The position numbers and the translations under genes were made by a program. This document shows positions 8,535 through 51,600 of a stretch of DNA of 52,742 bases, piece after piece. The notes under the pieces were generated by a model. That model was not told the DNA's origin, searched no databases, and was given only the letters and a program-made list of their open reading frames with translations. Numbering within the stretch: the first letter of the stretch is position 1; every line of letters begins with the position of its first letter. This DNA is from an uncultured Clostridium sp. (GTDB taxonomy: Bacteria; Bacillota; Clostridia; Clostridiales; Clostridiaceae): assembly GCA_902785295.1 (NCBI GenBank), contig CACZYK010000029.1:1-52742 (forward strand), in the 5' to 3' direction.

Positions 8535-8619
8535 AAAATATTAGGACTCTTATGTTATTCAGCTGTTCCGTCGACAGGCTCCAAGTCACTGCTTCATAAA
8601 ATAAGAGTCCTAATATTTT
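8535..8619. repeat. Family A long hairpin, copy A1
   Basis: Perfect 19-base stem: 8535-8553 (AAAATATTAGGACTCTTAT) with 8601-8619. The 47-base loop holds, in reverse orientation, the family core (GTTCCGTCGACAGGCTCCAAGTCAC at 8565-8589 when read on +, split here only for description). It begins 14 bases after the GH13 stop. The copy at 30512 has nearly the same flanks (ACTTGnTTC before, AAGCAA after) but a different stem sequence that still pairs. Confidence 0.8.
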
Positions 8620-8625
8620 ATAAGC

Positions 8626-8842
8626 AATGTTAAATTTATTAAGCACAAGCAAAAAAATAATAGAACTGTTACAAAGAGATATTAATGTTGAGTATTGTAT
8701 TAAGATATTATTATGCAATATTTATTTTAAAATTTCTTTTTGGCATGGTTCTATTTTTTTTGTGATAAAGTTTATATAACTAAATAAAACAACAAGAAAC
8801 AAGAAATTTTTGATGAAGAAATATAAAAAATATGTCGAGAAA
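8626..8842. other. Intergenic stretch without recognised content
   Basis: Together with the hairpin before it and the promoter after it, this makes up a 418-base gap. I see no supported reading frame, RNA gene or strong hairpin here. Confidence 0.4.
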
Positions 8843-8901
8843 AAATTAAGTGAAATCAATCACTTTAATTTTATTGACTTTAGAGGAAAATAAGATAAAA
8901 T
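8842..8901 (+). promoter_or_regulatory. Pullulanase promoter with upstream palindromic operator
   Basis: TTGACT (8874-8879), a 16-base spacer and TAAAAT (8896-8901) form the promoter. Immediately upstream is a palindrome, AAAATTAAGTGA (8842-8853), AATCAA, TCACTTTAATTTT (8860-8872). The centre TGAAATCAATCACT agrees with six of eight fixed positions of the catabolite-responsive element TGnnAnCGnTnnCA, lacking the CG centre. It may bind CcpA or a local maltodextrin regulator. Confidence 0.55.
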
Positions 8902-8938
8902 AAATTATGAAAAGAATTTCATAAGGAGATGGGAAAAT

Positions 8939-11900
8939 ATGAAGAATTTTAAAAAAATGTTTGCTTTTCTTCTGGCTTTTGTTTTTGTAGCAGCTTTAAT
9001 AAAAGTTCCATTTACAACAAAAGCAGATGAAGCAACACCACAGTCAGTGATTGTAAAGATTAAATATTCAAGAGCTGATAATGATTATTCAGATTGGGAT
9101 GTTTGGACATGGGATGATAAAGGAAATCCTGGTACAGCAAAAGAGTTTTCAGGAGTAGATAGTGAAGGAGTTTATTTAATCCTTGAAACAACATCAGATT
9201 CAAATTTAGGTTTTATAATAAGAAAAAAAGATTGGTCTGATAAGTTTGTTAATGAAGATGTAAAGCCTGATTTATCACAAGGAGATGTTGAATATTTAGC
9301 TACTTTATCAGAAGATGGAAGCAGAAATTTATCAACTAGAGAATTTAAACAAGCATTTGATAAAGTTACTTTAAATCTACATTATTATAGATTTGATGAA
9401 GATTATACTAATTGGGATTTATGGGCATGGGCACCAGAAGGAAAGAATTACGAATTTACTGATGACGATTTTGGTAAGGTTACCACTGCAGAATTTTCTA
9501 ATGTGGATGCAGAAACTAATGTGGGATTTATAGTAAGAAAAAATGACTGGTCTCAAAAGGACTGGGAAGCTGATAGATTTATAAATAAAGCTTATATGAA
9601 TGCTGATGGAGTAGTTGATGCTTATATAGTAAGTGGACAAGAAAAAGTTTACTATACTAAAGAAGCTGCACTTGAAGCTATTGAGATTGCTAAAAATCCT
9701 AGAGTTACTGAAGCAAATATAAATTCACTAAGAGAAATTCAATTTGCTGTTAACTCTAAAGTAGGAGGAGATTTAGTTTTAAAGATAACTTCAGCAGATG
9801 GAAAAGAAGTTTCATATGAAAGTATTGAATTAGATGAATCTGGTTTATCTGGTGTAGTTTATTTATCACAAGATTTAGATTTAAACAAGAATTATACATT
9901 AACAATTGAAGGTTTAGAAGGAAAACAATTAATGCCAGGTAAGGTATATGATAGCGAAGAATTTGCTGAAGCTTATACTTACAATGGAGAATTAGGTGCA
10001 GTTTACAGCAAGATTGGCACAACATTTACACTTTGGGCACCAACAGCTTCTGATGTAAAGGTAGCTTTATATGGAACTGATGGTAAAAATAATGGAGAAG
10101 CTGAAAAAGTACTTCCAATGACTAAAGGTGAAAATGGTTCTTGGTCACTTGACTTAGCTGGAGACCAAAAAGGTCAATTCTATAATTATTTAGTAACAAT
10201 TGATGGAACTACTAATGAAGTAGTAGACCCATATGCAAAAGCAGTTGGAGTTGATGGTAATCAAGGTATGGTTGTAGATTTAGCTGCAACAAATCCAGAA
10301 GGATGGGATGAAGATACAAAACCAGTACTTGAAGACCCAACAGATGCAGTTATTTATGAAATGCATATAAGAGATTTCTCTATTTCAGATAACTCAGGAG
10401 TATCACTTGAATATAAAGGTAAATATAATGGTGTATGGCAAGCAGGAACAACAATTCCAGGAACTGATGTAAAAACTGGAGTAGACCACTTAAAAGAATT
10501 AGGAGTAAATGTTGTTCATATACTTCCAACATTTGACCATCAATCAATTAAAGAAACTGAATTAGATAAACCTCAATTTAACTGGGGATATGACCCTAAA
10601 AACTATAATGTACCAGAAGGTTCTTATTCATCTGACCCATATACTGGAACAATAAGAATTGAAGAATTTAAGAAAATGGTTCAAGAACTTCATAAAGCTG
10701 GAATAAGAGTAGTTATGGACGTTGTTTATAACCATACTGGAGCTACTTTAGATTCAAATCTTAACTTAGCAGTTCCAAACTATTATTACAGACAAGCTCC
10801 AAATGGAAACTTCTCAAATGGTTCAGGTTGTGGAAATGAAACAGCATCAGAACGTTCAATGGTTAGAAAGTTTATGGTAGATTCAGTAACTTACTGGGCA
10901 AAGGAATACCATATAGATGGATTTAGATTTGACCTTATGGGATTACATGATATAGACACAATGAAAGAAATAAGAACTGAATTAAACAAAATTGATGATT
11001 CAATTCTTATGTATGGTGAAGGATGGACTGGTGGAGAATCTCCATTAGCACAAGATAAAGCTGCTCTTAAGGCAAATACAACTCAATATGGTGATTTACA
11101 AATAGCTGCATTTAGTGATGACATGAGAGATGGTATAAAAGGACATGTATTTACAGCAACAGCACCAGCATTTATTAATGGTGGACAAGGATTTGAAGAA
11201 ACAATTAAATTTGGTATTGTAGCTTCAACACCAAATGACCAAGTTGATTCAAATAAGGTTGCAAATAAAACTAAAGCTTGGGCAAATCAACCATATCAAA
11301 CAATAAACTATGCTTCAGCTCATGATAACTTTACTTTATGGGATAAGTTACAAACAACTAATCCGGAAGCTTCAAGAGATGAATTAGTTCAAATGAACAA
11401 AATGTCAGCTACAATAATTTATACTTCTCAAGGTATACCATTTATGCAAGCTGGTGAAGAAATGGCAAGAACAAAGCTTAATGCAGATGGAACATTTAAT
11501 GAAAACAGTTATAATGCACCAGATTCAGTTAATCAAATTGATTGGGAAAGAAAAGTAGAGTACAGCGATTTATATGATTACTATAAAGGCTTAATTTCTA
11601 TGAGAAAAGCTCACAAGGCATTTAGAATGAACACTACTGAAGATATCCAAAAGAGCATTAATTTCTTAGACAAACAACTTGAACTTCCAGCTAACGTTGT
11701 AGGATATACATTAAGTGGAGAAGCTTCAAATGATATTTGGAAGAATATAATGGTAATATTTAATGCAAATGATACAGATGTTGAAATTCCACTTTACAAT
11801 GGAGATTTAGATTGGGAAATTGTTGTTAATGGAGAAAAGGCAGGAGTTGAATCTTTAGGAAGCATAAAGGGTTCAGAAGGTTCTATAGTAGTACCAGCTC

Positions 11901-12214
11901 ATACTTCTTATGTTTTAGTTGATAAGGAAAGTTATGAAGCATCAATAGCTGATAACAATAATCCATCAGATGATGAAAATAATAACCCATCAGAAGATAA
12001 TAACAATACATCAGAAGATAATAACAATACATCAGAAGATAATAACAATACATCAAATAATAATAACAATAATTCTTCAAATACTAATAATTCAGGTTCA
12101 TCAAATGCACCATCTAAAACTGGAGATTCTAATAATATAATTTTAGTTTTAGCTTTAATTGGAATTTCAGCTGCAGGAGTTATAGTATTTTCTAGAAAGA
12201 AAAAAATATCTTAA
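8939..12214 (+). CDS. pulA: Secreted, surface-anchored type I pullulanase
   Basis: A 1091-residue exported protein. Residues 1-29 are a signal peptide ending TTKA. Two pullulanase-associated starch-binding repeats follow (about 35-110 and 138-230, each with YSDWDVW/YTNWDLW). A CBM48-like domain is near 350-440 (GTTFTLWAPTASDV). The GH13 catalytic domain has the pullulanase motif NWGYDP (about 547), DVVYNH, GFRFDLMG (nucleophile near 664), GEGW (acid near 693) and SAHDN (near 794). The C-terminus has an Asn/Ser/Glu repeat (NNNTSED three times), PSKTGD, one membrane helix and KKKK, a sortase-like anchoring signal, though the motif is not canonical LPxTG. It cleaves alpha-1,6 bonds in pullulan and glycogen. 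ATG 8939 follows AAGGAGATGGG. Confidence 0.94.
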   Translation: MKNFKKMFAFLLAFVFVAALIKVPFTTKADEATPQSVIVKIKYSRADNDYSDWDVWTWDDKGNPGTAKEFSGVDSEGVYLILETTSDSNLGFIIRKKDWSDKFVNEDVKPDLSQGDVEYLATLSEDGSRNLSTREFKQAFDKVTLNLHYYRFDEDYTNWDLWAWAPEGKNYEFTDDDFGKVTTAEFSNVDAETNVGFIVRKNDWSQKDWEADRFINKAYMNADGVVDAYIVSGQEKVYYTKEAALEAIEIAKNPRVTEANINSLREIQFAVNSKVGGDLVLKITSADGKEVSYESIELDESGLSGVVYLSQDLDLNKNYTLTIEGLEGKQLMPGKVYDSEEFAEAYTYNGELGAVYSKIGTTFTLWAPTASDVKVALYGTDGKNNGEAEKVLPMTKGENGSWSLDLAGDQKGQFYNYLVTIDGTTNEVVDPYAKAVGVDGNQGMVVDLAATNPEGWDEDTKPVLEDPTDAVIYEMHIRDFSISDNSGVSLEYKGKYNGVWQAGTTIPGTDVKTGVDHLKELGVNVVHILPTFDHQSIKETELDKPQFNWGYDPKNYNVPEGSYSSDPYTGTIRIEEFKKMVQELHKAGIRVVMDVVYNHTGATLDSNLNLAVPNYYYRQAPNGNFSNGSGCGNETASERSMVRKFMVDSVTYWAKEYHIDGFRFDLMGLHDIDTMKEIRTELNKIDDSILMYGEGWTGGESPLAQDKAALKANTTQYGDLQIAAFSDDMRDGIKGHVFTATAPAFINGGQGFEETIKFGIVASTPNDQVDSNKVANKTKAWANQPYQTINYASAHDNFTLWDKLQTTNPEASRDELVQMNKMSATIIYTSQGIPFMQAGEEMARTKLNADGTFNENSYNAPDSVNQIDWERKVEYSDLYDYYKGLISMRKAHKAFRMNTTEDIQKSINFLDKQLELPANVVGYTLSGEASNDIWKNIMVIFNANDTDVEIPLYNGDLDWEIVVNGEKAGVESLGSIKGSEGSIVVPAHTSYVLVDKESYEASIADNNNPSDDENNNPSEDNNNTSEDNNNTSEDNNNTSNNNNNNSSNTNNSGSSNAPSKTGDSNNIILVLALIGISAAGVIVFSRKKKIS
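11980..12055 (+). repeat. Short tandem repeat in the pullulanase wall-spanning region
   Basis: An 18-base unit encoding N-N-N-T-S-E-D type peptides (AATAACAATACATCAGAAGA with variants) repeats three times and degrades at both sides. The unit is in frame, so copy changes would alter only the stalk length. Confidence 0.65.
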
Positions 12215-12234
12215 TAAAAATAAGATTTAAAAAG

Positions 12235-12263
12235 AAGATGGCTAAATAAGCCATCTTTTTTTG
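12235..12263 (+). terminator. Intrinsic terminator after pulA
   Basis: Perfect nine-base stem AAGATGGCT (12235-12243) with AGCCATCTT (12249-12257), five-base loop, followed by seven T. Confidence 0.93.
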
Positions 12264-12409
12264 TATGATAAAATATAGCAAAATTTGCATATTATAAGAA
12301 TTCGAGTAAATATGACAAGAATATATATACATTTAAGTCGAAACATGTTATTATATATATAGGATAATAAAAAAATTGTGAAATGATTTTAAGAAAAGAG
12401 GTGAGATAA

Positions 12410-13657
12410 TTGATTATATATGAAAATTTATTAAATTCTAAAGAATATGAATGTACTTTAGGAAAAAAGGAATTAGAAGCATTATATATAAATACACCTA
12501 TTTCAGAAAATCTTGCAGAAGCCTTTGTTGATAAAGCAATAGAGTACATAAATTTAAAACTTATAAATTATGAAGAAAAAGATTTTTCAGAATTTGACGA
12601 ATGGTTATCATACTTAATTAATTATCAAAACCTTTTATTAGACAAAGTTAGCACTTTGGTTGATGATAAAACTATAGACGAGGAAAATTTAAAAAATTTA
12701 ATAAAAGATTTTATATATAGAGGGAAATCTAAAAGTGAAGTTTCATTAGGACTTGTATTATCTGGAGATTATTTAGAGGATTATGAAATAGACTATATAG
12801 TAAAGGTTTTTTCTAAAAGTGGAGATTATATTTTTTATTTAACAGATTGTATAAAAAATATAGAAGATTATGAAGAATTTCTTTTTGATTTATGTAAAAA
12901 AGCAGAGGGTACTATAAAAGTTTTTGCAATAATGAACATGGATTTTTCTAAGGAAGAAGAGGTAAAATATTTAATAAATGAAGGCTATAAAAATAATGAA
13001 TATACAGACCTAATAATAAAACATATAATGGAAAGTGATTTTATATGGAAATATTTAAATAAAGATGATTTAAGCTTTAAAGATATAAAAAGTATATCTT
13101 ATATAGTGGCAAATTACATAAGAGACAAGGATGTAGAAGCTCTACCTTGTATAATGAATTTAATAAAGTTATATCTTCCATATGCAATAATAGGAGGCTC
13201 AGATATTTATTCAATATATGCAATTTATTTAATGGAAACGGCTATATCTCATAAAAAGTTAGAATATCTTGAGGATAGAGAATTTTTATTAAACATAATC
13301 AAAGATAAGTTAAAAAGATGTGAATATCTTTTTAGAACAGCATTAAAAAAAGCTCAAGGTGATGTTACAGATATTATAGAGCTTGGAGAATATTATAAAT
13401 ATAAATTTTCATTTGAAGAGCTTAAGCCTTATTTAAAGACTGTAAAGAATGGATATTTTATATATTATTATTTCCAAAATTCCTCATCATTATTAGAAAG
13501 AGAAGATTGTAAGCGATATTTTATTGAAAATCATAAGTTTAAAGAGGTTCTTGAATATTTTGATGAATTAGAAAACTATAATAAAGCTTCTGGTGAAGGA
13601 GACTTTATAGTAAGATTTGATTCAGCATTAAAAAGAAGAAACAGTATTGGCTCTTAG
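12410..13657 (+). CDS. Conserved-looking helical protein, unknown function
   Basis: A 415-residue cytoplasmic protein, rich in Glu, Lys, Tyr and Ile, with no signal peptide or membrane segment. Translation begins at TTG 12410, six bases after AGAGGTG. The sequence looks like repeated pairs of helices, as in HEAT/TPR-like scaffolds, but I cannot identify a family. It is preceded by the pulA terminator and followed by argH with its own promoter, so it is probably a single-gene unit. Base and codon use match the neighbours. Nothing in the context indicates a role. Confidence 0.75.
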   Translation: MIIYENLLNSKEYECTLGKKELEALYINTPISENLAEAFVDKAIEYINLKLINYEEKDFSEFDEWLSYLINYQNLLLDKVSTLVDDKTIDEENLKNLIKDFIYRGKSKSEVSLGLVLSGDYLEDYEIDYIVKVFSKSGDYIFYLTDCIKNIEDYEEFLFDLCKKAEGTIKVFAIMNMDFSKEEEVKYLINEGYKNNEYTDLIIKHIMESDFIWKYLNKDDLSFKDIKSISYIVANYIRDKDVEALPCIMNLIKLYLPYAIIGGSDIYSIYAIYLMETAISHKKLEYLEDREFLLNIIKDKLKRCEYLFRTALKKAQGDVTDIIELGEYYKYKFSFEELKPYLKTVKNGYFIYYYFQNSSSLLEREDCKRYFIENHKFKEVLEYFDELENYNKASGEGDFIVRFDSALKRRNSIGS

Positions 13658-13670
13658 CTTATAATTTCTT

Positions 13671-13687
13671 ATAAAATATGGTATAAT
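13671..13687 (+). promoter_or_regulatory. Extended -10 promoter for argH
   Basis: ATAAAATATGGTATAAT, identical over 17 bases to the promoter at 2381-2397, with TATAAT at 13682-13687 and an upstream TG. The -35 region is poor in both. Confidence 0.6.
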
Positions 13688-13722
13688 CATTAAGAATATA
13701 TAAAAATTTTGAGGTGAATAGA

Positions 13723-15010: not shown

Positions 15011-15053
15011 ATAATAAGAAGGTTTTCTTATAAAAAGGAAAATTCTTTTAGTT

Positions 15054-15129
15054 AAAGCAGATTGAATATATTATTTTTTCCTAACCTAAAGCTATCAAGG
15101 AAAAAGTAATATATTTATTCTGCTTTTTT
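15054..15129. repeat. Family A long hairpin, copy A2
   Basis: Stem 15054-15073 with 15107-15126 (AAAGCAGA..AATATATTA and its complement, about 18 of 20 pairs), then T-run. The loop CTAACCTAAAGCTATCAAGG, followed by AAAAAG, follows the A-family pattern (CCT..ARC..AGGAAAAAG). It lies about 45 bases after the restored end of argH and could serve as its terminator. Confidence 0.7.
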
Positions 15130-15202
15130 CTATAGTAAAAATATTGAGTAAATTTTAAAAGTTTAGTATAATTATTGAAATAAAGAAGGTGAGGAGAGAT
15201 AT

Positions 15203-24868: not shown

Positions 24869-24988
24869 ATAAATAATCTTTTAATTTTATAGGAAATTAT
24901 ATATTTTGAAAATTGTGAACAACTTGTTAAGTTAATAATAAAGCTTAATAAAAGAAACAAGTTTAAGAATTTCCTTTCATTTAGTGAG

Positions 24989-25066
24989 AAAGTTTTAATT
25001 ATTATTTTGCGTTGACTTGGAGCTTGTCGACGGAAAAAGCAAAATAATAATTAAAACTTTTTTATA
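24989..25066. repeat. Family A long hairpin, copy A3
   Basis: Perfect 22-base stem: 24989-25010 (AAAGTTTTAATTATTATTTTGC) with 25039-25060, described by its ends only, plus a T-run. The 28-base loop 25011-25038 contains GTTGACTTGGAGCTTGTCGA then CGGAAAAA, and GTTGAC can pair with GTCGAC inside it. The hairpin lies between two divergent genes, so no transcript needs a terminator there. Upstream, TTAATAAAAGAAACAAGTT (from about 24946) is shared with copy A5. Confidence 0.8.
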
Positions 25067-26496: not shown

Positions 26497-27381
26497 ATGG
26501 AAAATGATAATAAAGACTTAATGAAGCTTATTCAAGAAAGATTTTCAAAGCTTAGTAAAGGACAAAAGCTTATAGCTGAATATATATTAAATAATTATGA
26601 TAAAGCAGCTTTTATGACAGCTGCTAAGCTTGGAGTAGCTGTAGGGGTATCAGAATCTACAGTAGTAAGATTTGCAAATGAGTTAAACTTTTCAGGATAT
26701 CCAAAGCTTCAAAAGGCTCTTCAAGAATTAATTAAAAATAAGCTTACAACAGTTCAAAGATTAGAATTGTCTAATGATTTTGTATCTGATGGAGATGCAC
26801 TTAAAGGAGTGCTTAAAGCAGATACAGAAAACATAAGAGCAACATTAGAAAAAATTAATCCAGATACCTTTGAAAATGTGGTTAATTCTATTTATAAGGC
26901 AAAGACAATATATGTGATAGGACTTAGAAGTTCTACAGCATTAGCAGAATTTTTAGGTTTTTATCTAAACATAATTCTTAAAAATGTAAGAATTGTAAGC
27001 TATGGAATTTCAGACATATTTGAGCAGGTTATTAATATCAAAGAAGGGGATTTAGTAATAGGAATAGGTTTCCCTAGATATGCTGCAAAAACTATAGATA
27101 TTTTAGATTTTGCAAAAAGTAAAGGAGCAGAGGTTGTTGCTTTAACAGATAGCCTTTTATCACCTTTAGCAACAAAAGCAGATTATACTCTAATTGCTCA
27201 AAGTAATATGGCATCTTTTGTAGATTCTTTAGTAGCCCCTCTTTCTGTAATAAATGCTTTAATAATAGCAATTGGAATGAGGGAAAAAAGTAATATATCA
27301 AATACATTTAACAATTTAGAAACAATTTGGAAAGAGTATAATGTTTATTCTTATAATAACAAAATTATTTCAGATAATTAA
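26497..27381 (+). CDS. MurR/RpiR-family transcriptional regulator
   Basis: A 294-residue regulator. Residues 1-80 form the RpiR helix-turn-helix domain (LSKGQKLIAEYILNNYDKAA, then GVSESTVVRFANELNFSGYP). A linker leads to a SIS sugar-phosphate-binding domain (about 125-260; YVIGLRSSTALAEFLGFYL and VIGIGFPRYAAKT). Such proteins sense phosphosugars and usually control neighbouring sugar-use genes. Here the neighbours are an RNA methyltransferase and convergent asnB, so the regulon lies elsewhere or the gene regulates itself. The start is ATG 26497, preceded by GTAGGATG. Confidence 0.9.
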   Translation: MENDNKDLMKLIQERFSKLSKGQKLIAEYILNNYDKAAFMTAAKLGVAVGVSESTVVRFANELNFSGYPKLQKALQELIKNKLTTVQRLELSNDFVSDGDALKGVLKADTENIRATLEKINPDTFENVVNSIYKAKTIYVIGLRSSTALAEFLGFYLNIILKNVRIVSYGISDIFEQVINIKEGDLVIGIGFPRYAAKTIDILDFAKSKGAEVVALTDSLLSPLATKADYTLIAQSNMASFVDSLVAPLSVINALIIAIGMREKSNISNTFNNLETIWKEYNVYSYNNKIISDN

Positions 27382-27393
27382 TAATTAAAAGTC

Positions 27394-27492
27394 ATGAGCT
27401 GTTGCATAAATAGTTTTAATTACAATATATAGTATATCTTATATAATTAAATATTTTATATATTGTAATTATTAATTAATGAAACAGCTCAT
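27394..27492. repeat. Family B long hairpin, copy B2
   Basis: Outer stem ATGAGCTGTT (27394-27403) with AACAGCTCAT (27483-27492). Inner perfect 13-base stem AATTACAATATAT (27418-27430) with ATATATTGTAATT (27458-27470). It fills the space between the convergent rpiR-type gene and asnB and could terminate both transcripts. Confidence 0.7.
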
Positions 27493-27498
27493 TAATTA

Positions 27499-29271
27499 TT
27501 AAATTTCAATATCTAAATTATATTTTTCAAGCCAATAGTTTATTTGAATTAGATAAGCTATAAGTTGAGCTCCTGTCATAAGTTGTCCATACCATGGAAC
27601 TTTATAGGAGTTTCCCTTACTATCAACAATAGCTTTAACCTTTTCTTTATCAATAAGAGTAAGAATAGGAGAAGTTTTGTTATTTAATATATTTTTCATA
27701 ATTGAACATACTATTTCAGTATAAATAGGATTATGAGTTTTAGGATAAGGACTCTTTTTTCTATAAATTATATCTCTAGGAAGTATTCCTTCAAGAGATT
27801 TTCTAAGAAGTCCCTTTTCTCTTCCATTTAAAAGTTTAATTTTGGTAGGAATATTAAAGGCATATTGTGCTAGGCGTATATCTGCAAAAGGTACTCTTAC
27901 TTCTAAGCTATTTCTCATACTCATTCTATCTTTACGATTTAGTAAAGTAATCATAAACCATTTTATATTTAAATAAAATAATTCTCTCATTCTAAAATCT
28001 TCTTTATCTTCATCTGGTAAATGTGGAACTTTTTTTAGGGTATCATTATACATAGCTTGAGACATTTCTTCTATTTCTAAATTTTTTATTCCATCATTTA
28101 AAATAGATAACCTATCATTAATAAATCTAGACCAAGGAAAGGTATTTGCATATTTTAATTCATCACGAGTAAACCATGGATAACCTGCAAAAAGCTCATC
28201 AGCACATTCTCCAGATAAAGCAATTACAAAATCTTTTCTAACCTCTTTGCAAAATAAAAATAAAGAAGAATCTACATCTGCCATTTGAGGAAGGTCATTA
28301 GCTTCTGTTGCATTATATAAAGCATAAGCTAAATTCTTATGATTTAAGGTTATAGTTTTATGATTTGAACCTATAAATTTTGCCATTTCTTCTGCCCAAT
28401 ACTCATCTGAAGTAGGTTGAAATAAAGATGATTTAAAATATTTATCATTATCTTCATAATCAATAGAGTAAGTAGTTAAAATTTTATTTTTCTTTTTAAA
28501 TTCACTAGAGGCTATAGCAGAAATAGCAGAAGAGTCTAAACCCCCAGATAAAAAAGTACATAATGGAACATCACCTACAAGTTGTCTTTTTATAGAATCA
28601 ATTAATAAACTTTTAGTATGTTCTATTATTTCTTCTTTTGTTTCATTATTTTCTTTTGCTTTAACATCCCAATATTCTTTAAGAATACAATTATCCTTAT
28701 TTATTATCATGTAATGTCCTGGGGGAATTTCTTTTATACCTTTTAATATTCCACTTCCAGGAACTCTTGCAGGTCCTAGTGCAAATAATTCCGTAAGACC
28801 TTTTCTATCAATTACTGCTTTTATATTGGGGTGGCATAATATGGCTTTTATTTCAGAGGCAAAAATAATATTATTATCTTTTATAGAATAAAACAAAGGT
28901 TTTACTCCCATTTGGTCTCTAGCAAGAAAAACAGAATTCTCTTTTTTATCAAAGATAACCTCTGTATCAGAATAAGATTTAAATTTAAAGCCATTAATAA
29001 GTAAATCCTTTCTTATATCCTCTGTATTATAAAGCTCTCCATTATATATAAGAATATATTCATTATTTTCTATGTTTTTTATCATTGGCTGTTTTCCACC
29101 TGTTTTATCAACTACAACCAGTCTTCTGTGTCCTAAAAGTACATTATTTGATAGGTAATGTCCCTCTTCATCAGGACCTCTTTTAATAAGAGTGTTTTCC
29201 ATTTTAAATAAAATATCTTTATCATCTAATATATTTTTATGAAAATTAATTATACCTACAATTCCACACAT
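27499..29271 (-). CDS. asnB: Asparagine synthetase B (glutamine-hydrolysing)
   Basis: A 590-residue two-domain enzyme. The N-terminal class II glutamine amidotransferase starts MCGIVGIINF, so Cys2 becomes the catalytic nucleophile after Met removal, and includes RGPDEEGHY and LGHRRL. The C-terminal synthetase domain has the ATP pyrophosphatase motif LSGGLDSSA (about 240) and RNSLEVRVPF. It converts aspartate, glutamine and ATP to asparagine in the cytoplasm. Transcribed divergently from hisC from a 162-base region filled with inverted repeats. Length is slightly longer than E. coli AsnB, normal for Firmicutes. Confidence 0.93.
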   Translation of the reverse strand: MCGIVGIINFHKNILDDKDILFKMENTLIKRGPDEEGHYLSNNVLLGHRRLVVVDKTGGKQPMIKNIENNEYILIYNGELYNTEDIRKDLLINGFKFKSYSDTEVIFDKKENSVFLARDQMGVKPLFYSIKDNNIIFASEIKAILCHPNIKAVIDRKGLTELFALGPARVPGSGILKGIKEIPPGHYMIINKDNCILKEYWDVKAKENNETKEEIIEHTKSLLIDSIKRQLVGDVPLCTFLSGGLDSSAISAIASSEFKKKNKILTTYSIDYEDNDKYFKSSLFQPTSDEYWAEEMAKFIGSNHKTITLNHKNLAYALYNATEANDLPQMADVDSSLFLFCKEVRKDFVIALSGECADELFAGYPWFTRDELKYANTFPWSRFINDRLSILNDGIKNLEIEEMSQAMYNDTLKKVPHLPDEDKEDFRMRELFYLNIKWFMITLLNRKDRMSMRNSLEVRVPFADIRLAQYAFNIPTKIKLLNGREKGLLRKSLEGILPRDIIYRKKSPYPKTHNPIYTEIVCSIMKNILNNKTSPILTLIDKEKVKAIVDSKGNSYKVPWYGQLMTGAQLIAYLIQINYWLEKYNLDIEI

Positions 29272-29433: not shown

Positions 29434-30495
29434 ATGAGTAAATTTTGGAATGAAACAGTAAATAAAATTGAACCTTATGTACCAGGAGAGCAACCAAGAG
29501 ACAAAAAATATGTAAAGTTAAATACAAATGAAAATCCATATCCACCATCAAAAAAGGTACTTGAAGTTGTTAAAAATTCAGCAAATGAGGATTTAAGACT
29601 TTATCCAGACCCAGTATGTACAGAATTAAGTGAAGCAATTGCAAATTTCTATGGCTTAAATAAAGAAAATATATTTTTAGGAAACGGTTCTGATGAAGTA
29701 TTAGCATTTTCTTTTATGACATTTTTCTCAAAGAATAAAACAATATTATTTCCAGATATAAGCTATAGTTTTTATCCTGTATATGCAGAATTCTTTGGAT
29801 TAAATTATAAAATGGTTTCTCTTGATGAGAAATTTAATATACCATTAGAGGAGCTTAAAAAGGAAAATGGAGGAGTAATACTTCCAAATCCTAATGCTCC
29901 AACAGGAAAATACATAAGCACAGACAAGCTTAAAGAACTTTTAGAGGAGAATAAAGATAGTGTTGTTATAATAGATGAAGCTTATATAGATTTTGGTGGA
30001 GAAAGCATGGTTAAGTATATTAAAGACTACAATAATTTATTAGTAGTACAAACTTTTTCAAAATCAAGGTCATTAGCAGGTTCAAGAATAGGTTTTGCTC
30101 TTGGAGATAAGGAGCTTATTGAAGGACTAAACAGAGTAAAAAATAGTATAAATTCATATACAATAGATAGAACAGCACTAGCAGCAGGAAAGGCAGCTAT
30201 TGAGGACAAAGAATATTTTGAAGAAACAAGAAATAAAATAATAAAAACTAGAGAAAATGTATCAAAAGCTTTAAAAGAAATGGGATTTAAGGTTTTAGAT
30301 TCTAAAGCAAACTTTATATTTATATCTCACAAAGATTTTGAAGGACAATATCTTTATGAGGAATTAAGAAATAGAGGAGTTTTAGTAAGATTCTTTAATA
30401 AAGATAGAATAAATAAATTTTTGAGAGTAACAATTGGCACAGATGAAGAGATGGATATATTAATTGAAAAGCTTAGAGAGATTACAAAGCATTAA
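29434..30495 (+). CDS. hisC: Histidinol-phosphate aminotransferase
   Basis: A 353-residue fold-type I PLP enzyme: KLNTNENPYPPSKKV near the N-terminus, NGSDEVLAF, NPNAPTGKY, and the PLP lysine in TFSKSRSLAGSRIGFA (about 210). It transfers an amino group from glutamate to imidazole-acetol phosphate in histidine synthesis; members also act on aromatic amino acids. It is alone, without the his operon. ATG 29434 follows AGGAGGAATAT. It is followed 16 bases later by hairpin A4. Confidence 0.9.
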   Translation: MSKFWNETVNKIEPYVPGEQPRDKKYVKLNTNENPYPPSKKVLEVVKNSANEDLRLYPDPVCTELSEAIANFYGLNKENIFLGNGSDEVLAFSFMTFFSKNKTILFPDISYSFYPVYAEFFGLNYKMVSLDEKFNIPLEELKKENGGVILPNPNAPTGKYISTDKLKELLEENKDSVVIIDEAYIDFGGESMVKYIKDYNNLLVVQTFSKSRSLAGSRIGFALGDKELIEGLNRVKNSINSYTIDRTALAAGKAAIEDKEYFEETRNKIIKTRENVSKALKEMGFKVLDSKANFIFISHKDFEGQYLYEELRNRGVLVRFFNKDRINKFLRVTIGTDEEMDILIEKLREITKH

Positions 30496-30511
30496 ATATT
30501 GACTTGTTTCA

Positions 30512-30660
30512 AAAATATTAGGTTCCTTATGTTATTCTTTTAGGAAGCCCGACTCACTTTGTTCGCTGGGTAAGTTCGAAGAGCAAAATATAAAATTTTG
30601 ATTCTCACTTATCGACAGGCTCCAAGTCACGCCTTCATAAAATAAGGAACCTAATATTTT
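30512..30660. repeat. Family A long hairpin, copy A4, with enlarged loop
   Basis: Perfect 19-base stem 30512-30530 (AAAATATTAGGTTCCTTAT) with 30642-30660. Compared with copy A1 at 8535, the stem has GTTCC in place of GACTC and the other arm is changed to match. The loop is 111 bases against 47 in A1: it keeps TCGACAGGCTCCAAGTCAC (30612-30630) but carries extra, GC-richer sequence (30542-30600, with GCCCGACTCACTTTGTTCGC). The IS begins only 19 bases to the right. Together with the IS inverted repeat it fills the 308-base gap after hisC. Confidence 0.8.
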
Positions 30661-30674
30661 AATAAGCAAAATTA

Positions 30675-32231
30675 ATAATTAGGGTTTGCTCAGCAAATAA
30701 AAATTACTGATAAAAACACACTTTAGAAGAATTTTGTATTATAATAAGTGCAAGGATTATTTAGAAATATAGTAAAAAAGCTTGCACTTGAGGTGGGATT
30801 ACAATGTATAAAACTGAACAACAATTAAAATTTGAAGATTTTGTATTTCCATATGGAAAATTGAATGAAGATAATAGATGGGTAAAATTATCTAAAATAA
30901 TTCCTTGGGATGAAATTGAAATTAAATATGCTAAGAAATTTAAAAAGAAAGGAAATCCAGCTAAAAATGTAAGAATAGCTTTAGGTAGCCTTATAATACA
31001 ACAAACATTAAATTGTTCAGATAGAGAGCTTGTTAATCAAGTATCTGAAAATCCATATCTTCAGTTTTTTATTGGATTAAAAGAGTTTCAAGAAAAAGCT
31101 CCTTTTTCAGCATCTGTTTTAGTAGATTTTAGAAAGAGATTTTCTTCAAAATTTCTTTCTGAAATTAATGAATTGATTATCGAAAGCGGAAGCAAAGATA
31201 ATGATTCTGATAAAACTGATGACGACTCAAATGATACTTCTGGTAATAATGGTACTATAATAATGGATGCTACTTGTGTTCCATCTGATATTTCTTATCC
31301 ACAGGACTTAAATCTCTTAAATGAAGCAAGAGAAAATTTAGAAAAGATTATAGATAACTTAAATAAAGATTTTAAAGGTAAAAAGCCCAGAACTTATAGA
31401 AAAGTAGCAAGAAACGAATTCTTGAAAATTTCAAAAGCAAGAAAAAAGCCTACTAAAAAGTTAAGAAAAGTAATCAGAAAACAATTAGGATATATACATA
31501 GAGATTTAGGTTACATTAATAATATGAGTGAAGGTGGAACTTTACTTACTGATAAACAAAAAGAGAAAATTGATATTATCATTAATGTTTATAATCAACA
31601 GAAAGAAATGTTTGATAACAAAAAACATAGTGTTAAAGATAGGATAGTCAGTCTTACTCAACCATATGTACGACCAATTGTTAGAGGCAAAGCAAGTGCA
31701 AAAACAGAATTTGGAGCTAAAGTAGAGATAAGTGTAATCAATGGATTTTCAAGAATTGAGTTTTTAAGCTGGGATGCTTATAACGAATGTGATAGCTTGG
31801 AAACAATAGTAGAAAGATTCAAAGAAAGAAATGGTCATTACCCTGAACGAGTATTAGCAGATAAAATTTACAGGAATAGAGATAACCTAAATTATTGCAA
31901 AAGTAAAGGTATAAGACTTAGTGGTCCTAATTTAGGGCGTCCAAGAAAAGATAATGTATATGATAAAAAAATAGAATATATTGATTTGTGTGATAGAAAT
32001 GAAGTTGAAGGTAAATTCGGTGAAGGTAAAAGAAAATATGGTTTAAATCGTATTTTAACAAAACTTAAAGAAACTTCAGAATGTGTCATTAATATTGCAT
32101 TTATTGTTTCAAATCTTAATAAGAGATTAAGATCTCTTATTAAAGTTATGCTAAATTTTATTTTGAAACTTATATTTGATGAAAATTATAATTATAAAAA
32201 ATATAGGGTTTGCTGAGCAAACCCTAAATAA
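30675..32231. mobile_element. Complete insertion sequence with 4-bp target duplication
   Basis: Inverted repeats TTAGGGTTTGCTCAGCAAA (30679-30697) and its exact complement at 32209-32227 bound a 1549-base element. ATAA flanks both ends (30675-30678 and 32228-32231) and is read as the target duplication. One transposase gene lies within, and its stop codon (TGA 32214-32216) is inside the right repeat. The right end is itself palindromic (AGGGTTTGCT-G-AGCAAACCCT). The element looks intact and possibly active. Family: DUF772-type DDE elements (IS1182/IS5 relatives). Confidence 0.88.
30804..32216 (+). CDS. DDE transposase (DUF772 type, IS1182/IS5-like)
   Basis: A 470-residue transposase. Residues about 45-130 form the DUF772 DNA-binding domain (KNVRIALGSLIIQQTLNCSDRELV). 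Candidate catalytic residues are the Asp in IIMDATCVPSD (about 154), the Asp in RVLADKIYRNRDN (about 353) and the Glu in EVEGKFGEGKRKYGLNR (about 400). Basic linker regions (KKPTKKLRKVIRKQ) separate them. ATG 30804 follows GAGGTGGG. The frame is unbroken and full-length. The C-terminal residues are encoded by the right inverted repeat. Confidence 0.92.
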   Translation: MYKTEQQLKFEDFVFPYGKLNEDNRWVKLSKIIPWDEIEIKYAKKFKKKGNPAKNVRIALGSLIIQQTLNCSDRELVNQVSENPYLQFFIGLKEFQEKAPFSASVLVDFRKRFSSKFLSEINELIIESGSKDNDSDKTDDDSNDTSGNNGTIIMDATCVPSDISYPQDLNLLNEARENLEKIIDNLNKDFKGKKPRTYRKVARNEFLKISKARKKPTKKLRKVIRKQLGYIHRDLGYINNMSEGGTLLTDKQKEKIDIIINVYNQQKEMFDNKKHSVKDRIVSLTQPYVRPIVRGKASAKTEFGAKVEISVINGFSRIEFLSWDAYNECDSLETIVERFKERNGHYPERVLADKIYRNRDNLNYCKSKGIRLSGPNLGRPRKDNVYDKKIEYIDLCDRNEVEGKFGEGKRKYGLNRILTKLKETSECVINIAFIVSNLNKRLRSLIKVMLNFILKLIFDENYNYKKYRVC

Positions 32232-44905: not shown

Positions 44906-44941
44906 GTTAAATATAAAAATTATGTGTGAGGGGGCCGAAAA

Positions 44942-45886: not shown

Positions 45887-45974
45887 AAAGTAATTATACT
45901 TACTATTAAATTGTAGGTAATTTTCTAGGTTTAATAGTAAAATTTAATAAAAGAAATAAGTTCAGAGATTTTAG

Positions 45975-46045
45975 AAAGTGTGAATTATTATTTTGTATTA
46001 ATTTAGAAATGAAAAAGCAAAGTAATAATTTCACACTTTTTATAT
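45975..46045. repeat. Family A long hairpin, copy A5
   Basis: AAAGTGTGAATTATTATTTTG (45975-45995, 21 bases, given by ends AAAGTGTG..ATTTTG) pairs with 46018-46039 with one bulge and one wobble, then TTTT. Loop TATTAATTTAGAAATGAAAA is the most degenerate of the family. Flank TTAATAAAAGAAATAAGTT (from about 45944) matches that of A3. The rest of the 412-base gap before htpG shows only the htpG promoter. Confidence 0.7.
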
Positions 46046-46260: not shown

Positions 46261-46298
46261 ATATTTTGTTACATGATAATAATAGGAGATGAAAATAA

Positions 46299-48248
46299 AT
46301 GAGTAATGAAAAAGGAACTATATCAATTGATACCGAAAATATTTTTCCAATAATAAAGAAATGGTTATATTCTGATAAGGATATATTTATAAGAGAATTA
46401 ATAAGCAATGGATGTGATGCTGTAAGCAAGCTAAAGAGATTAATTTCTTTAGGAGAAGCAAAGGAAGTTAGTGAAGGCTTTAAGATTACAGTTACAGTAG
46501 ATAAAGAAAATAAAACATTAACCTTTACTGATAATGGTATTGGTATGACAGAAGAAGAAGTTAAAAAGTATATAAATCAAGTAGCATTTTCAGGTGCAGC
46601 AGACTTTATGGAAAAGTATAAAGAAAAGATGGACCAAGGAAATGATATAATAGGTCATTTTGGACTAGGATTTTATTCAGCATTTATGGTTTCAAAAAGA
46701 GTTCAAATAGATACACTTTCTTATAAAGAAGGAGCAGAAGCTGTAAGATGGATTTGTGATGGCGGTACTGAATATGAAATATCACCTTCAGATACAAAAA
46801 AAGAAAGAGGTACAACAATAACTCTTTATATAGATGAAGAAAGTGAAGAATTTTTAAATGGATATAAGGTAAGAGGAATAGTTGAAAAGTATTGTTCATT
46901 CCTTCCAACAGAAATTTATTTTGTAGATGTTGAAGAGGAAAAGAGAAAGGCTGAAGAAAAAGCTAAAAAAGAAGAAGAAATTAAAAAGAAGAAAGAAGCA
47001 GGAGAAGAAGTAGAGGAAGAAGAAAATGTAGTAGATGTTCCTCAAGCTATAAATGATACAAATCCTCTTTGGCTTAAAAAACCTTCTGAATGTACAGATG
47101 AAGAATATAAGGATTTTTATAGAAAGGTATTTAATTGTTATGATGAACCTTTATTCTGGATTCATTTAAATGTAGACTATCCATTTAACTTAAAGGGTAT
47201 TTTATACTTCCCTAAACTTAAAAATGAATTTGAATTAGTTGAAGGACAAGTAAAACTATTTAATAATCAAGTCTTTGTAGCTGATAATATAAAGGAAGTA
47301 ATTCCAGAATTCTTATTACTTCTTAAAGGTGTTATAGATTGTCCAGATTTACCTCTTAATGTATCAAGAAGTTTCCTTCAAAATGATAGAGAAGTAGCTA
47401 AGATATCTAAACATATTGTTAAAAAGGTTGCAGATAAGTTAAATTCAATATTTAATAATGATAGAGAAAAATATAATAAGTTCTGGGATGATATACAATT
47501 ATTTATTAAATATGGTTGCCTAAGAGATGAAGGATTTTATGATAAGATAAAGGATTCTATTGTATTTAAGACAATAAATGATGAATATGTTACATTAAAA
47601 GATTACCTTGAAAAAGCAAAGGATACTCATGAAAATAAAGTATTCTATGTAAGTGATTTAGAAAAACAATCACAATATATTAAGTTATTTAAAGAATATG
47701 GAATTGATGCAGTAATATTAAGTACTCCAATTGATAATAACTTTATGTCATTCTTAGAATATAAAGACCAAAATGTTAAATTTACAAGAGTTGATTCTGA
47801 TATATCAGACATTTTAAAAGACAAGGATGAAAATAAAGAAGATAAAAAAGAAGAAAATGAAAAAATAATAAAAGTCTTTAAGGATGTTGTTGGAGAAAAG
47901 ATGAAGGAATATTCAGTTGAAAGTTTAAAGAATGAAGGAACTCCAGCTATGGTTTTAACTTCTGAATATTCAAGAAGAATGGCAGAAATGCAAAAGCAAT
48001 TTGGTGGAAATATGATGGCAGGAATGAACTTCCCACAAGAAAGAACATTAGTAATTAATGATAAAAATGCCATAGTAAAGAAACTTGTTTCTTTAGCTGA
48101 TGATGAAAGCAAGAAGGATAAGGTATCATTAATTGTTAACCAAATTGTTGACCTAGCACTTATAGGAAACAAAGAGCTTAATGCTGAGGAATTAGATACA
48201 TTTATAAAGAGAACAAATGACCTTATGACAATGGTTATTGACCTATAA
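46299..48248 (+). CDS. htpG: Hsp90-family chaperone HtpG
   Basis: A 649-residue chaperone. The GHKL ATPase motifs are ELISNGCDAVSKL (about 29-41), DNGIGMT, GHFGLGFYSAFMV and GTTITLYI. A charged linker (EEKRKAEEKAKKEEEIKKKK, about 210-240) is longer than in E. coli HtpG. The middle domain has the catalytic Arg in NVSRSFLQNDREV. The C-terminal dimerisation part is complete. ATG 46299 follows AGGAGATG. Regulation by CtsR is indicated by the operator upstream. Confidence 0.96.
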   Translation: MSNEKGTISIDTENIFPIIKKWLYSDKDIFIRELISNGCDAVSKLKRLISLGEAKEVSEGFKITVTVDKENKTLTFTDNGIGMTEEEVKKYINQVAFSGAADFMEKYKEKMDQGNDIIGHFGLGFYSAFMVSKRVQIDTLSYKEGAEAVRWICDGGTEYEISPSDTKKERGTTITLYIDEESEEFLNGYKVRGIVEKYCSFLPTEIYFVDVEEEKRKAEEKAKKEEEIKKKKEAGEEVEEEENVVDVPQAINDTNPLWLKKPSECTDEEYKDFYRKVFNCYDEPLFWIHLNVDYPFNLKGILYFPKLKNEFELVEGQVKLFNNQVFVADNIKEVIPEFLLLLKGVIDCPDLPLNVSRSFLQNDREVAKISKHIVKKVADKLNSIFNNDREKYNKFWDDIQLFIKYGCLRDEGFYDKIKDSIVFKTINDEYVTLKDYLEKAKDTHENKVFYVSDLEKQSQYIKLFKEYGIDAVILSTPIDNNFMSFLEYKDQNVKFTRVDSDISDILKDKDENKEDKKEENEKIIKVFKDVVGEKMKEYSVESLKNEGTPAMVLTSEYSRRMAEMQKQFGGNMMAGMNFPQERTLVINDKNAIVKKLVSLADDESKKDKVSLIVNQIVDLALIGNKELNAEELDTFIKRTNDLMTMVIDL

Positions 48249-48261
48249 TATAATTAAATTA

Positions 48262-48340
48262 AAAGTGTAAATTATTATTTTGTGTTGCCTTAAAGGCAGT
48301 AGGGCAGAAAAAGCAAAAGTATAATTTACACTTTTTTTAT
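48262..48340. repeat. Family A long hairpin, copy A6
   Basis: 48262-48282 (AAAGTGTAAATT..TTTTG) pairs with 48314-48334, two mismatches, followed by TTTTTTT. Loop TGTTGCCTTAAAGGCAGTAG, then GGCAGAAAAAG. It lies 13 bases after htpG and can act as its terminator; a -10 for truA (TATAAT 48350-48355) follows closely. Confidence 0.78.
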
Positions 48341-48387
48341 TATGTATGATATAATTAAAATGATTTTAAGAGATTAAAGGAGATATG

Positions 48388-49131
48388 ATGAACAACATAA
48401 AATTAACAATACAATATGATGGAACTAGATATAATGGATGGCAAAAGCAAAAGGAGAAGAATATTACAACCATTCAAGGAAAGCTTGAACATGTTTTAAG
48501 CAAAATGACTGATGAAGACATTCAACTTATTGGTTGTGGAAGAACTGATGCAGGGGTTCATGCAGATAATTTTGTGGCAAATTTTACTACAAATTCAACA
48601 AAACCTTTAGAAAAAATAAAAGAGTACTTAGATGAATATCTTCCAGAGGATATCATAATTAAAGAGGTTAAATTAGCAAGTCCAAGATTTCATGCAAGAT
48701 ATAATGTAAAGTCAAAAAGTTATGTTTACAGAATAAATAATAATGAAAATAATGATGTATTTACAAGAAAATATGCTTATCATATAAAAGAAAAACTTAA
48801 TATAGAAGATATGAAAAAAGCATCAGAATTTTTAATTGGGATTCATGATTTTAAGAGTTTTACAAATTTAAAAAGTAAGAAAGAAAAATCAACTGTAAGA
48901 ACAATAAATTATATAAATATAAGTGAAAATAAGGGTATGATAAATATAGAGATTAATGGAAATTCCTTTCTTTTAAATATGGTAAGGATAATTATAGGAA
49001 CATTAATCGAGGTTGGATTAGGTAAAAGAAGTCCTTTGGAAATGGAAGATATAATAAATGCTATGAATAGGGAAAAAGCAGGAGAAAGAGCACCAGCTCT
49101 TGGGCTTATGATGAAATGTGTTGAGTATTAA
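48388..49131 (+). CDS. truA: tRNA pseudouridine synthase A
   Basis: A 247-residue enzyme that isomerises uridines 38-40 in tRNA anticodon arms. Catalytic Asp lies in [11 protein letters not shown] (about 49-59); other family motifs are [22 protein letters not shown] and [16 protein letters not shown]. The second of two adjacent ATGs (48388) is best spaced from AAGGAG; 48385 is too close. It is followed by the surface protease gene after 39 bases. Confidence 0.95.
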
Positions 49132-49170
49132 TTTAAAGAGATTTTATTGAGAATAAAAAGGGGGATTTTC

Positions 49171-51507
49171 ATGAAAAGAAGGGGTATAATTTTAATAATA
49201 GCTTTAGCTTTAGGGCAAATTCCTGTAACTACTTATGGAAAAGAAATAAGTACATCTTTAACAGAAGAATATAATTTAGTAAAAGAATATAATCCAGCTT
49301 ATGAAGAGTACTTAAAAAAAATGGAAAGTGGAGAAGAAGAAATTATAAATATGCCTTCTCCTTATATAATAGATGGGACAAGTATAGAAAGTAGTTATAA
49401 TCAATATGAAGAATATGATCCTAGAAAATTAAATCTTATGACATCAGTAAAAGACCAAGGTACATTAGATGTATGTTGGAGCTTTGCTAGTTTAGGGACA
49501 TTAGAAAGTTATTTAGCATTAAATAGAGATGAATATTATGATTTCTCAGAGGAGCATTTAAGATGGTGGGGAACAGCTGATGAAGAAGGCTATGGATGGC
49601 ATAGAGCTGCAGATAGAGGAGGATATGACCAAATAGCTCTTGGATATTTTACTGCATGGGCAGGACCAAAACTTGAAAGTGATATACCATTTCAATATTC
49701 AAAGTTAGCACCTAAGCCTAGTAATATGAACAAAGCAGAAACAGCCTTTAATGTTTCACGCATAATGTATCTTAAAAATGATAAAGAAACTATAAAAAAT
49801 GCAGTGCTTAAATATGGAGGAGTTTATACAGCATATTTTCATTCTGCTCTTTATTATGATAAGATTAATGGAACTTATTGCTATCCTGGACAAAGAACTG
49901 CTACAAATCATTCTGTTATAATTGTTGGATGGGATGATAACTATCCTAAAGAAAATTTTAGATTAAATAGTAGTATAGAAAATGATGGAGCATGGCTTGT
50001 TAAAAGCAGTTGGGGAAACAATAATAATGAAGGAGGCTATATTTGGGTCTCTTATGAAGATACAAGTATATTAGATGAAGGTTATAATACCAATTATTCA
50101 ATTTTAGAAGCAGAACAATCAAGTAATAATTATAAATTATATCAGCATGATGAAGAAGGAGCAGATTATACATTTAAACTTGCAAAGGAAGATGGAGAAC
50201 CAGAAACAAACCTTTATGTTGCTAATCTTTATGATTTTACAGAGGATTATAATATTTTAGATTCAATTGTTTTTCAAACAACTAATCAAGGAGCAACTTA
50301 TGATTTATATTATATTCCTTTAAAAGAAGATATTCCTGACATTGAAAATAAAATAGTTTTATATAGTGGGACTGTTCCTTATTCAGGATATATAAAGACA
50401 GATGTAAATTCTTTTATACTTCCAAAAGGAAAGGGTCTTATAGGGGTACACATAGATAATAGTATTAATAATAAAGCAGCATCTATAGGATGTCAGGAAA
50501 ATTTAGTATATTCAAGTGGAGAGTATCTTTATAAAGCAAAGGTTAATTTAGGAGAAAGCTATATATTTAATGAAGATTCTATTGAAGACTTAAATTTATT
50601 TGATAAAACAGAGCCAAGAAACTTTACTATAAAGGCAATAACTAAAAAGTCAAATGATAGCTCAATTTCAGAAGGAACAATTGGAGAAAAAGCTATAGAA
50701 TTTAATAAGAATAACAAAGAATATAATATAGAGCTTCCATATTATTATAAAGATTCACTACAACAAATAAAATTTAAAGCTAATAATAGTTTTGGAAAGA
50801 TAATCTCAATAAATAATATGGAAAAGAATTCAAATGAAGTTTATGATAAAATAGAACTTAATGAAGAAAATCCTAAAATAGAAGTTATATGTGAAGCACC
50901 AGATAAAACTAAAATAAGTTATTTAATAAATATTTCTTTTTCAAGTGAACTTAATTATGGAGAAGATATAAATAAGTTTTTAGAAAAAGATATAGAGGGA
51001 AATGAAGAAGAATATTTAAATATAGCAAAATTAGTAGTAAATAGCTATGATAATTTAAGTTTAGATGAAAAAAATAAAGTGTTAAATGAAAATAAAGAGA
51101 AGGTTGAAAATTTAAGAAGCTTTATTAAAGAAAAGGAAGAACCTATTATTCCACCATCAGAAGATGATAATAAACCAAATGAAAAAAATCCTTCAAAAGA
51201 TAACAATCAGCAAGGTGAAGAGAATTCATCAGAGGATAGCAATAAGCCAGGTGAAGAAAAACCATCAGATGGTGATAATAAACCTGAAGAGGAAAATTCA
51301 TCAAAAGATAAGGATAATTTAGAAAATAAAGTTTCTTTAAATAGGGACAAAAATTTAAATAAATCAAGCTTTGTTCTTACAGCTGATGATTTAAATACTA
51401 AAGGATTTTTAATAACAATGGTTATTTTTTGGATATCTTTAGGTATTATAATTCATTTTAATAGAAAGCATGAAAAGAAAGAAGATAAGAAAAAGAATAA
51501 AAAATAA
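49171..51507 (+). CDS. Surface-anchored papain-family (C1) cysteine protease with lectin-like region
   Basis: A 778-residue exported protein. Residues 1-25 are a signal peptide (ends TTYGK). The C1 domain has DQGTLDVCWSFAS with Cys at about 102, and NHSVIIVGWDD with His at about 247. The usual catalytic Asn motif KNSWG reads KSSWG here, so Asn is Ser. A beta-rich lectin-like region (about 310-500) follows, then a Pro/Asp/Asn/Ser-rich stalk with SEDDNKP repeats, one membrane helix (about 738-760) and a very basic tail. It has no LPxTG motif, so it is held in the membrane. I use ATG 49171 after AAAGGGGG. Substrate unknown. Confidence 0.88.
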   Translation: MKRRGIILIIALALGQIPVTTYGKEISTSLTEEYNLVKEYNPAYEEYLKKMESGEEEIINMPSPYIIDGTSIESSYNQYEEYDPRKLNLMTSVKDQGTLDVCWSFASLGTLESYLALNRDEYYDFSEEHLRWWGTADEEGYGWHRAADRGGYDQIALGYFTAWAGPKLESDIPFQYSKLAPKPSNMNKAETAFNVSRIMYLKNDKETIKNAVLKYGGVYTAYFHSALYYDKINGTYCYPGQRTATNHSVIIVGWDDNYPKENFRLNSSIENDGAWLVKSSWGNNNNEGGYIWVSYEDTSILDEGYNTNYSILEAEQSSNNYKLYQHDEEGADYTFKLAKEDGEPETNLYVANLYDFTEDYNILDSIVFQTTNQGATYDLYYIPLKEDIPDIENKIVLYSGTVPYSGYIKTDVNSFILPKGKGLIGVHIDNSINNKAASIGCQENLVYSSGEYLYKAKVNLGESYIFNEDSIEDLNLFDKTEPRNFTIKAITKKSNDSSISEGTIGEKAIEFNKNNKEYNIELPYYYKDSLQQIKFKANNSFGKIISINNMEKNSNEVYDKIELNEENPKIEVICEAPDKTKISYLINISFSSELNYGEDINKFLEKDIEGNEEEYLNIAKLVVNSYDNLSLDEKNKVLNENKEKVENLRSFIKEKEEPIIPPSEDDNKPNEKNPSKDNNQQGEENSSEDSNKPGEEKPSDGDNKPEEENSSKDKDNLENKVSLNRDKNLNKSSFVLTADDLNTKGFLITMVIFWISLGIIIHFNRKHEKKEDKKKNKK

Positions 51508-51525
51508 ATATTAAAATTTATTTAG

Positions 51526-51600
51526 AAAGTGTGAATTATTACTTTGCAGTAACCTAGAACTAGCAGGAAAAAGCAAGTAATAATTTCACACTTTTTTATT
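51526..51600. repeat. Family A long hairpin, copy A7
   Basis: 51526-51547 (AAAGTGTG..CTTTGC) pairs with 51573-51594 with single-base bulges. Loop AGTAACCTAGAACTAGCAGG then AAAAA. It fills the space between the protease gene and the convergent helicase gene, and T-runs on the right suit termination. Confidence 0.78.

Follow-up and report, generated by a model that had tools for sequence, protein, structure and literature searches.

Hairpins with one conserved tip and covarying stems at gene 3' ends in the genus Clostridium, probably short mobile elements

BOX, RUP and NEMIS/Correia elements are repeat families whose members are similar in sequence, while the attC sites of integrons lie in a fixed orientation just behind a stop codon, with a stem kept by structure over sequence and outer boxes that read RYYYAAC ... 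GTTRRRY. Here we set beside them a family of hairpins from a contig of an uncultured Clostridium sp. (assembly GCA_902785295.1, contig CACZYK010000029.1; its whole stretch of 52,742 nucleotides is called the window below). In those parts of the sources that were available, repetitive extragenic palindromes (REPs) are described as small palindromes, many of them within ~15-20 nt of a stop codon (PMC12306157), that carry a conserved foot tag, GTAG or CGTC (PMC3733652). The low-GC firmicutes, according to another partly available source, hold many AT-rich hairpins near stop codons, and the new families named there came from Yersinia, Bordetella and Enterococcus (Petrillo et al., 2006; PMC1590033).

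The window hairpins belong to a genus-wide family with a conserved tip, covarying stems, placement at gene 3' ends and turnover of sites between relatives. Like BOX, RUP and NEMIS/Correia they are short, structured, intergenic, non-autonomous and partly modular (here a "module A" and a core hairpin); unlike them, they have unrelated stems that share one tip, and these stems covary. We consider it probable, at roughly 60%, that the family consists of short non-autonomous mobile hairpins (~75-190 bp) of the genus Clostridium, with a stem kept by pairing and a single structured tip.

The evidence begins with the core that forms the tip. The window is contig C29 of its own genome (G000, a 3.2 Mb draft of 151 contigs, 96% complete), and two close relatives with the same repeats were matched to named records through identical loci: G082 (SUG910, JALFQD, Clostridium sp.) and G087 (RUG296, ONGV, uncultured Clostridiales). 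The pattern TGACTTGGAGCYTGTCGACGG, with up to three mismatches, matches 57 times in the own genome and its reversed form not at all. Within a panel of 68 Clostridium genomes, drafts included, the exact string CTTGGAGYYTGTCGA occurs 52 times in G000, 41 in G082, 17 in G087 and once each in G016 and G075, with none in the other 63; its reversed control matches once in each of two genomes. The initial annotation had proposed a covariance search as the test that could refute the family, and such a model (R1) does find further copies, in 11 of the 68 genomes, leaving 57 without a match. The counts (G000 51, G082 42, G087 46, G063 46, G016 23, G004 15, G066 10, G080 10, G085 5, and G015 and G075 one each) are upper estimates, because some palindromes match on both strands, and a more thorough search gave 104 for G063, 18 for G004, 13 for G066, 11 for G080, 8 for G085 and 1 for G015. 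Outside the three close relatives the core was visible at 47 of 48 loci inspected, the exception (L203) having been examined in the wrong part, and 43 distinct cores from other species follow, with few deviations, the pattern Y-GACTTGGAG-n(3-6)-CGACGGA-R, each species having its own unrelated stems. The bases flanking 120 cores with an exact left half, from all genomes, are T-A in 82, C-G in 31, T-G in 3, C-A in 3 and T-T in 1, so that the closing Y-R pair is Watson-Crick in 113 of 120, both as T-A and as C-G, and covaries. What was measured is the sequence of the core and this flanking covariation; drawn from the sequence, the core can be folded as GAC-UU-GGA over GAC-GGA, two tandem G.A pairs flanking a C-G and a G-C pair that have a UU bulge between them.

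Elsewhere the core was sought widely. A pattern search of 391 genomes across the class, only six of them other members of the genus, gave four single matches outside the own genome (G429, G462, G099 and G446), which were rejected as chance since they have no matching hairpin and look coding; the reversed control matched once in each of nine genomes. A core within a 13 bp inverted repeat at the end of an uncultured Clostridia contig (L046) reads as coding (DLELVDG) and was omitted as doubtful. That no named element of this kind is known, as initially stated, agrees with the searches made: no Rfam family reaches its curated score in the window, the lists below threshold hold only miRNA-like and similar weak matches, and among 12 other loci the only Rfam match is a T-box away from the hairpin. 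(This T-box leader, at L200 1190-1393 on the minus strand, lies near a hairpin of G066.) Searches of the open literature (subscription papers being outside their scope) gave no description of the core, and among the matches listed for its ten-letter string the papers concern plants, animals or other unrelated subjects. Viral contigs in IMG/VR had no match to the exact core patterns, plasmids none to the window type I copy, the window type II copy or the locus L207, and phages none to the type I copy or L207; a 58-base match of L186 to a Fusobacterium vincentii plasmid covers only its upstream part, and the type II copy has a single 35-base match in a Fusobacterium phage.

The stems fall into several types. 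Type I elements (~115 bp) have an outer helix, then a 19 bp helix AAAATATTAG-nnnnn-CTTAT. Further inward come four pairs set between two invariant mismatches, T.C on the outer side and a GA/GA tandem on the inner, and after these a short helix of variable sequence and the core. In type II (~190 bp) a module A (a hairpin closed by AGGAAATT/AATTTCCT, and a tail) precedes the core hairpin, behind which comes a T-tract; the stem of type IIb is a different one, and that of type III different again. Long-loop forms hold an extra domain (GTCGATAAGTGAG ... GTCGGGCTTCC), and there is also a GGGC form. The early claim that stems lack a common sequence stands between types I, II, IIb and III and the families of other species, where they are unrelated, and fails within type I, whose AAAATATTAG-nnnnn-CTTAT stems are partly conserved with a hypervariable yet paired stretch. 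Partial nucleotide matches reveal module A without the core hairpin in G082 and G087, and at C170:6581 of G087 (L119) the core hairpin lies the other way round with respect to module A, which looks like a flip of the loop between the arms. Module A often holds TGTGGATAA (window 24920-24935 and other type II copies, not conserved in all), which resembles a DnaA box. Arrays that alternate type I and type III tips in units of ~202 bp occur at L107 (G000 C75) and L143 (G082 C101), with more units in G000.

The stems change and remain paired, as had been noted from the window alone. We aligned 53 of 54 selected short-loop type I copies (A1; one with a broken right arm was omitted), the selection being filtered on core mismatches and complementarity and so favouring paired copies. 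Among 52 distinct copies and 40 pairs, 157 cells show both-sided change, vs 48.7 +- 5.8 in shuffles; 21 pairs have such change vs 13.8, the score is 0.226 vs 0.088, and none of 500 shuffles reached these values. Cells are paired in 90.5% vs 82.5% after shuffling, a percentage that leans upward because of the filter. Sliding the structure by 1-3 columns leaves only 21-32 both-sided cells. Helix 3 carries both-sided change in 15 of its 27 pairs with one-sided changes rare (5 cells); pairing is weaker in the two outer helices, at 61.5% in helix 1 and 72.4% in helix 2. The fixed mismatches are in no case "repaired," an argument that the element is shaped by selection on structure and not by arm-to-arm copying alone; such copying or conversion would in turn account for how few wobble pairs there are, and both forces may act on the stems.

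Placement was read from simply called open reading frames (ORFs) of at least 80 aa, with orthologues counted separately, so that rows are not all independent. For types I and III there were 84 rows, of which 10 at contig or stretch edges and 5 inside a called ORF were set aside; the right-hand gene faces the element in 65 of the remaining 69 (35 of 37 in the own genome alone), the others being three "++" rows and one "-+." A distance of at most 18 nt separates 41 of these 65 copies from the stop of the facing gene (TAA 34, TAG 7), and the other 24 comprise 6 long-loop copies, 14 array members, 3 that are both and one (C3:59034) 48 nt away. In G016, likewise, the right gene faces the element at 13 of 17 loci. 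For types II and IIb (48 rows, 17 set aside at edges and one inside an ORF) the left gene is in sense in 25 of 30, and where the two genes converge, the right end of the element is mostly found directly at the stop of the other gene; the type II copies look like terminators set after T-tracts.

A fixed orientation behind stop codons and a stem kept by structure are also what one would expect of scattered attC-like sites handled by an integron-type integrase. The window copy at 8535 even fits both attC boxes by eye; the other copies mostly have TTAGC and ATTAA there, and element ends usually read TTARCTTG ... CAAAATTAA. Since, in addition, no integron integrase (TIGR02249) exceeds its cut-off in five genomes, where the weak matches, like those in all 14 controls, are to ordinary tyrosine recombinases, and the copies are dispersed at many unrelated genes with no cassette array, this explanation is scarcely credible. 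The same placement would also suit a regulatory RNA motif, bound for instance by CsrA, which prefers GGA in loops, or by a protein that recognises tandem G.A pairs; the hairpin would then regulate or stabilise transcripts at gene ends and its spread would be secondary. The strict motif with two GGA and covarying flanks speaks for this, as does the sense orientation of type II behind a gene and with a T-tract, but type I and III cores are antisense to the adjacent gene (in 36 "--" cases no neighbour would transcribe the core), the core decays while the hairpin stays, and copies are present or absent between close relatives, all of which leaves a primarily regulatory role rather doubtful.

Comparison of orthologous intergenic regions, suggested at the outset as a way to find empty sites, yielded four clean ones in relatives, each with the whole hairpin missing: the type I copy at window 8568 (empty in G087, C233), the type I copy at C48:22773 (empty in G082), the type II copy at G082 C83:30212 (empty in G000) and the type IIb copy at G000 C24:25598 (empty in RUG296). 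A T-tract flanks the insertion at C83:30212 on both sides, as target duplication or a reused tract would give. A further empty site, opposite G082 C266:9376, was rejected because the relative holds a different copy there. Array copy number also differs between relatives. In a set of 15 orthologous comparisons, the stem is unchanged in five; differs in five, mostly on both sides at paired positions (C20:24015, C2:35578, C79:4577, whose orthology is uncertain, C79:10609, with one double change and one wobble, and C10:15257, with one double change and a different left flank); and shows a one-sided change giving G.T in one (C20:27483). A sixth differing comparison, C98:554 and its relatives, has double changes together with one-sided intermediates. 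In three more it is the apical half that differs, as one block, within identical stem halves (C10:17742, C81:5733) or nearly identical ones (C34:22344). Some of these differences could be due to conversion by another copy. The proposal of a mobile core, in the strict sense of a core that jumps by itself into ready-made hairpins, finds no support at the empty sites, where it is the whole hairpin that is missing. The apical half swapped inside an otherwise identical stem at two or three loci does show that a tip can be exchanged by itself, whether through conversion or in another way.

These empty sites bear on another explanation, that the hairpins are plain, vertically inherited intrinsic terminators whose loop likeness is accidental or ancestral. 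Type II and the decayed copies do end in T-tracts, and AT-rich hairpins behind genes, some in repeat families and with A-tract/T-tract symmetry, are common in low-GC firmicutes near stop codons; the part of that survey available describes no conserved tip on variable stems (PMC1590033). Against it stand the 57 core copies vs none in the control, the identical tip on unrelated stems in several species, and the lack of a proper T-tract on either side in type I copies, which have only ATATTTTTGA, and in those of G016, which have none; the clean empty sites largely refute it, and we regard it as quite improbable.

Within the window, all seven sites first noted (8535, 15054, 24989, 30512, 45975, 48262 and 51526) are indeed hairpins, of roughly 19-25 nearly perfect pairs each, while the shared loop core ascribed to them is intact or nearly so in three and decayed in four. 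For 8535 and 30512 the first annotation had not given the strand of the core, which is minus. The type I element at 8518..8635 (-), with its core at 8568-8588 (-), lies directly after the TAA stop of the ORF at 6937-8520 (R1 E 6e-33). At 24881..24982 (+) stands the module A of a type II element (AGGAAATT ... AATTTCCT hairpin, CTTTCATTTAGT tail), as delimited in an alignment of 31 of 42 type II copies and the G075 copy (A2), followed at 24983..25065 (+) by its core hairpin and T-tract (25 nt arms, 96%; core 25013-25033, +; E 1e-13); this element is shared with G082 (C390) and falls in a deleted stretch in G087. The third, at 30495..30677 (-), is a type I element with the long apical domain GTCGATAAGTGAG ... 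GTCGGGCTTCC and a core at 30609-30629 (-) with 3 mismatches (E 3e-21); the same form occurs at G087 C41:19785-19962. R1 misses the other four sites in the window even at E up to 10. Three of them are assigned to the family because they resemble, at the nucleotide level, type II copies found in related genomes (blastn; best E ~1e-18, 1e-15 and 3e-16, respectively): a module A remnant with hairpin and T-tract at 45920..46041 (+), a hairpin and T-tract with a GGGC-type loop at 48258..48338 (+), and another between two convergent genes at 51520..51598 (+). The fourth, a decayed IIb-like hairpin and T-tract at 15049..15127 (+) with the loop TCCTAACCTAAAGCTATCAAGG and 29 nt arms (90%), has a single nucleotide match, to another decayed hairpin (E 3e-5); a separate stem scan picks out both it and the site at 48262. 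All four decayed copies keep stem and T-tract and lose the core, which is what one would expect of a core needed for spread but not for the resident function. Site 45975 is present in G082 and absent in G087, 48262 holds different hairpins or repeats in both, 51526 is taken by a different repeat in G082 and by a plain, unrelated hairpin in G087, and at 15054 both relatives carry other genes. A second palindromic repeat family, with GAGCTGTTGCATAAAT-type arms around a TATATTGT stem, lies at window 27361-27525; it is matched at many places in G082 and G087, and repeats of this type occupy the sites 48262 and 51526 in G082.

As small palindromes close to stop codons, present in tens of copies, the hairpins are reminiscent of REPs moved by an IS200/IS605-type (RAYT) transposase (PMC3733652, PMC12306157), and the REP/BIME systems, as far as the available text describes them, share with our family short interspersed palindromes that sit near gene 3' ends and number from tens to hundreds. 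The arrangement is the opposite, however: here the tip or apex is conserved and the stem is free down to its foot, whereas the REP foot is tagged. By eye no GTAG or CGTC tag is seen in A1, where the ends read TTAAYTTTG and CAAGCTAA-like. The Y1 transposase domain (PF01797) has no match in G000, G082 or G075, drafts in which a gene could be missed (G000 being 96% complete), one match in G087 and two, one of them with stops, in G016. A REP-like origin is thus very improbable.

As we picture the mobile family, each element would carry a 15-25 bp stem kept by pairing and topped by Y-GAC-UU-GGA-G-n-C-GAC-GGA-R, and copies would settle at gene 3' ends, types I and III right behind the stop codon in fixed orientation, type II behind terminator T-tracts and bringing a T-tract of its own. 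Tip and paired stem would be recognised, as single-stranded DNA or RNA, by trans-acting machinery that copies the element, and resident copies would then serve as terminators while the tip decays. The structured element with a recognised loop that had been suggested is well supported by the core on unrelated stems in eleven genomes, its flanking covariation and the presence or absence of elements between relatives; the recognition itself, and with it mobility driven by the tip, we infer. Tentatively, the tip might be a strand-specific signal of a mobilisation system that brings hairpins to the ends of genes; the stem would be rewritten or copied arm to arm, so that pairs change together with hardly any wobble, and the tip could be swapped as a cassette within a resident hairpin.

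Several observations weigh against a mobile family. No recurrent transposase, reverse transcriptase or other mobilising gene stands beside the copies, where only ABC ATPases and a single pair of similar proteins recur as neighbours (for transposases outside the Y1 family the search covered these neighbours and not whole genomes); reverse transcriptase matches number one in G000 (RVT_1), three in G082 and one in G087. The evidence for mobility comes mostly from three close genomes, and the empty sites have no outgroup to polarise them, so that single cases could be losses. The antisense position of type I and III cores leaves them without an obvious source of transcription. Module A hardly covaries (1 of 17 pairs). 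Finally, G.T outnumber A.C mismatches by 14 to 8 in type I, which does not settle the functional strand, and by 79 to 17 over 113 hairpins, a count that comes mostly from positions that do not vary in types II and IIb.

If our reading is correct, the three-dimensional tip, and not the sequence, defines a family of mobile palindromes that extends across a well-studied genus and went unnoticed because its stem sequences differ. Such a family would offer natural covariation data on the joint evolution of hairpin arms and a bait for finding a nucleic-acid-binding or mobilising protein. It would also be a ready source of terminator turnover, as at window 51526, where three relatives carry three different hairpins.

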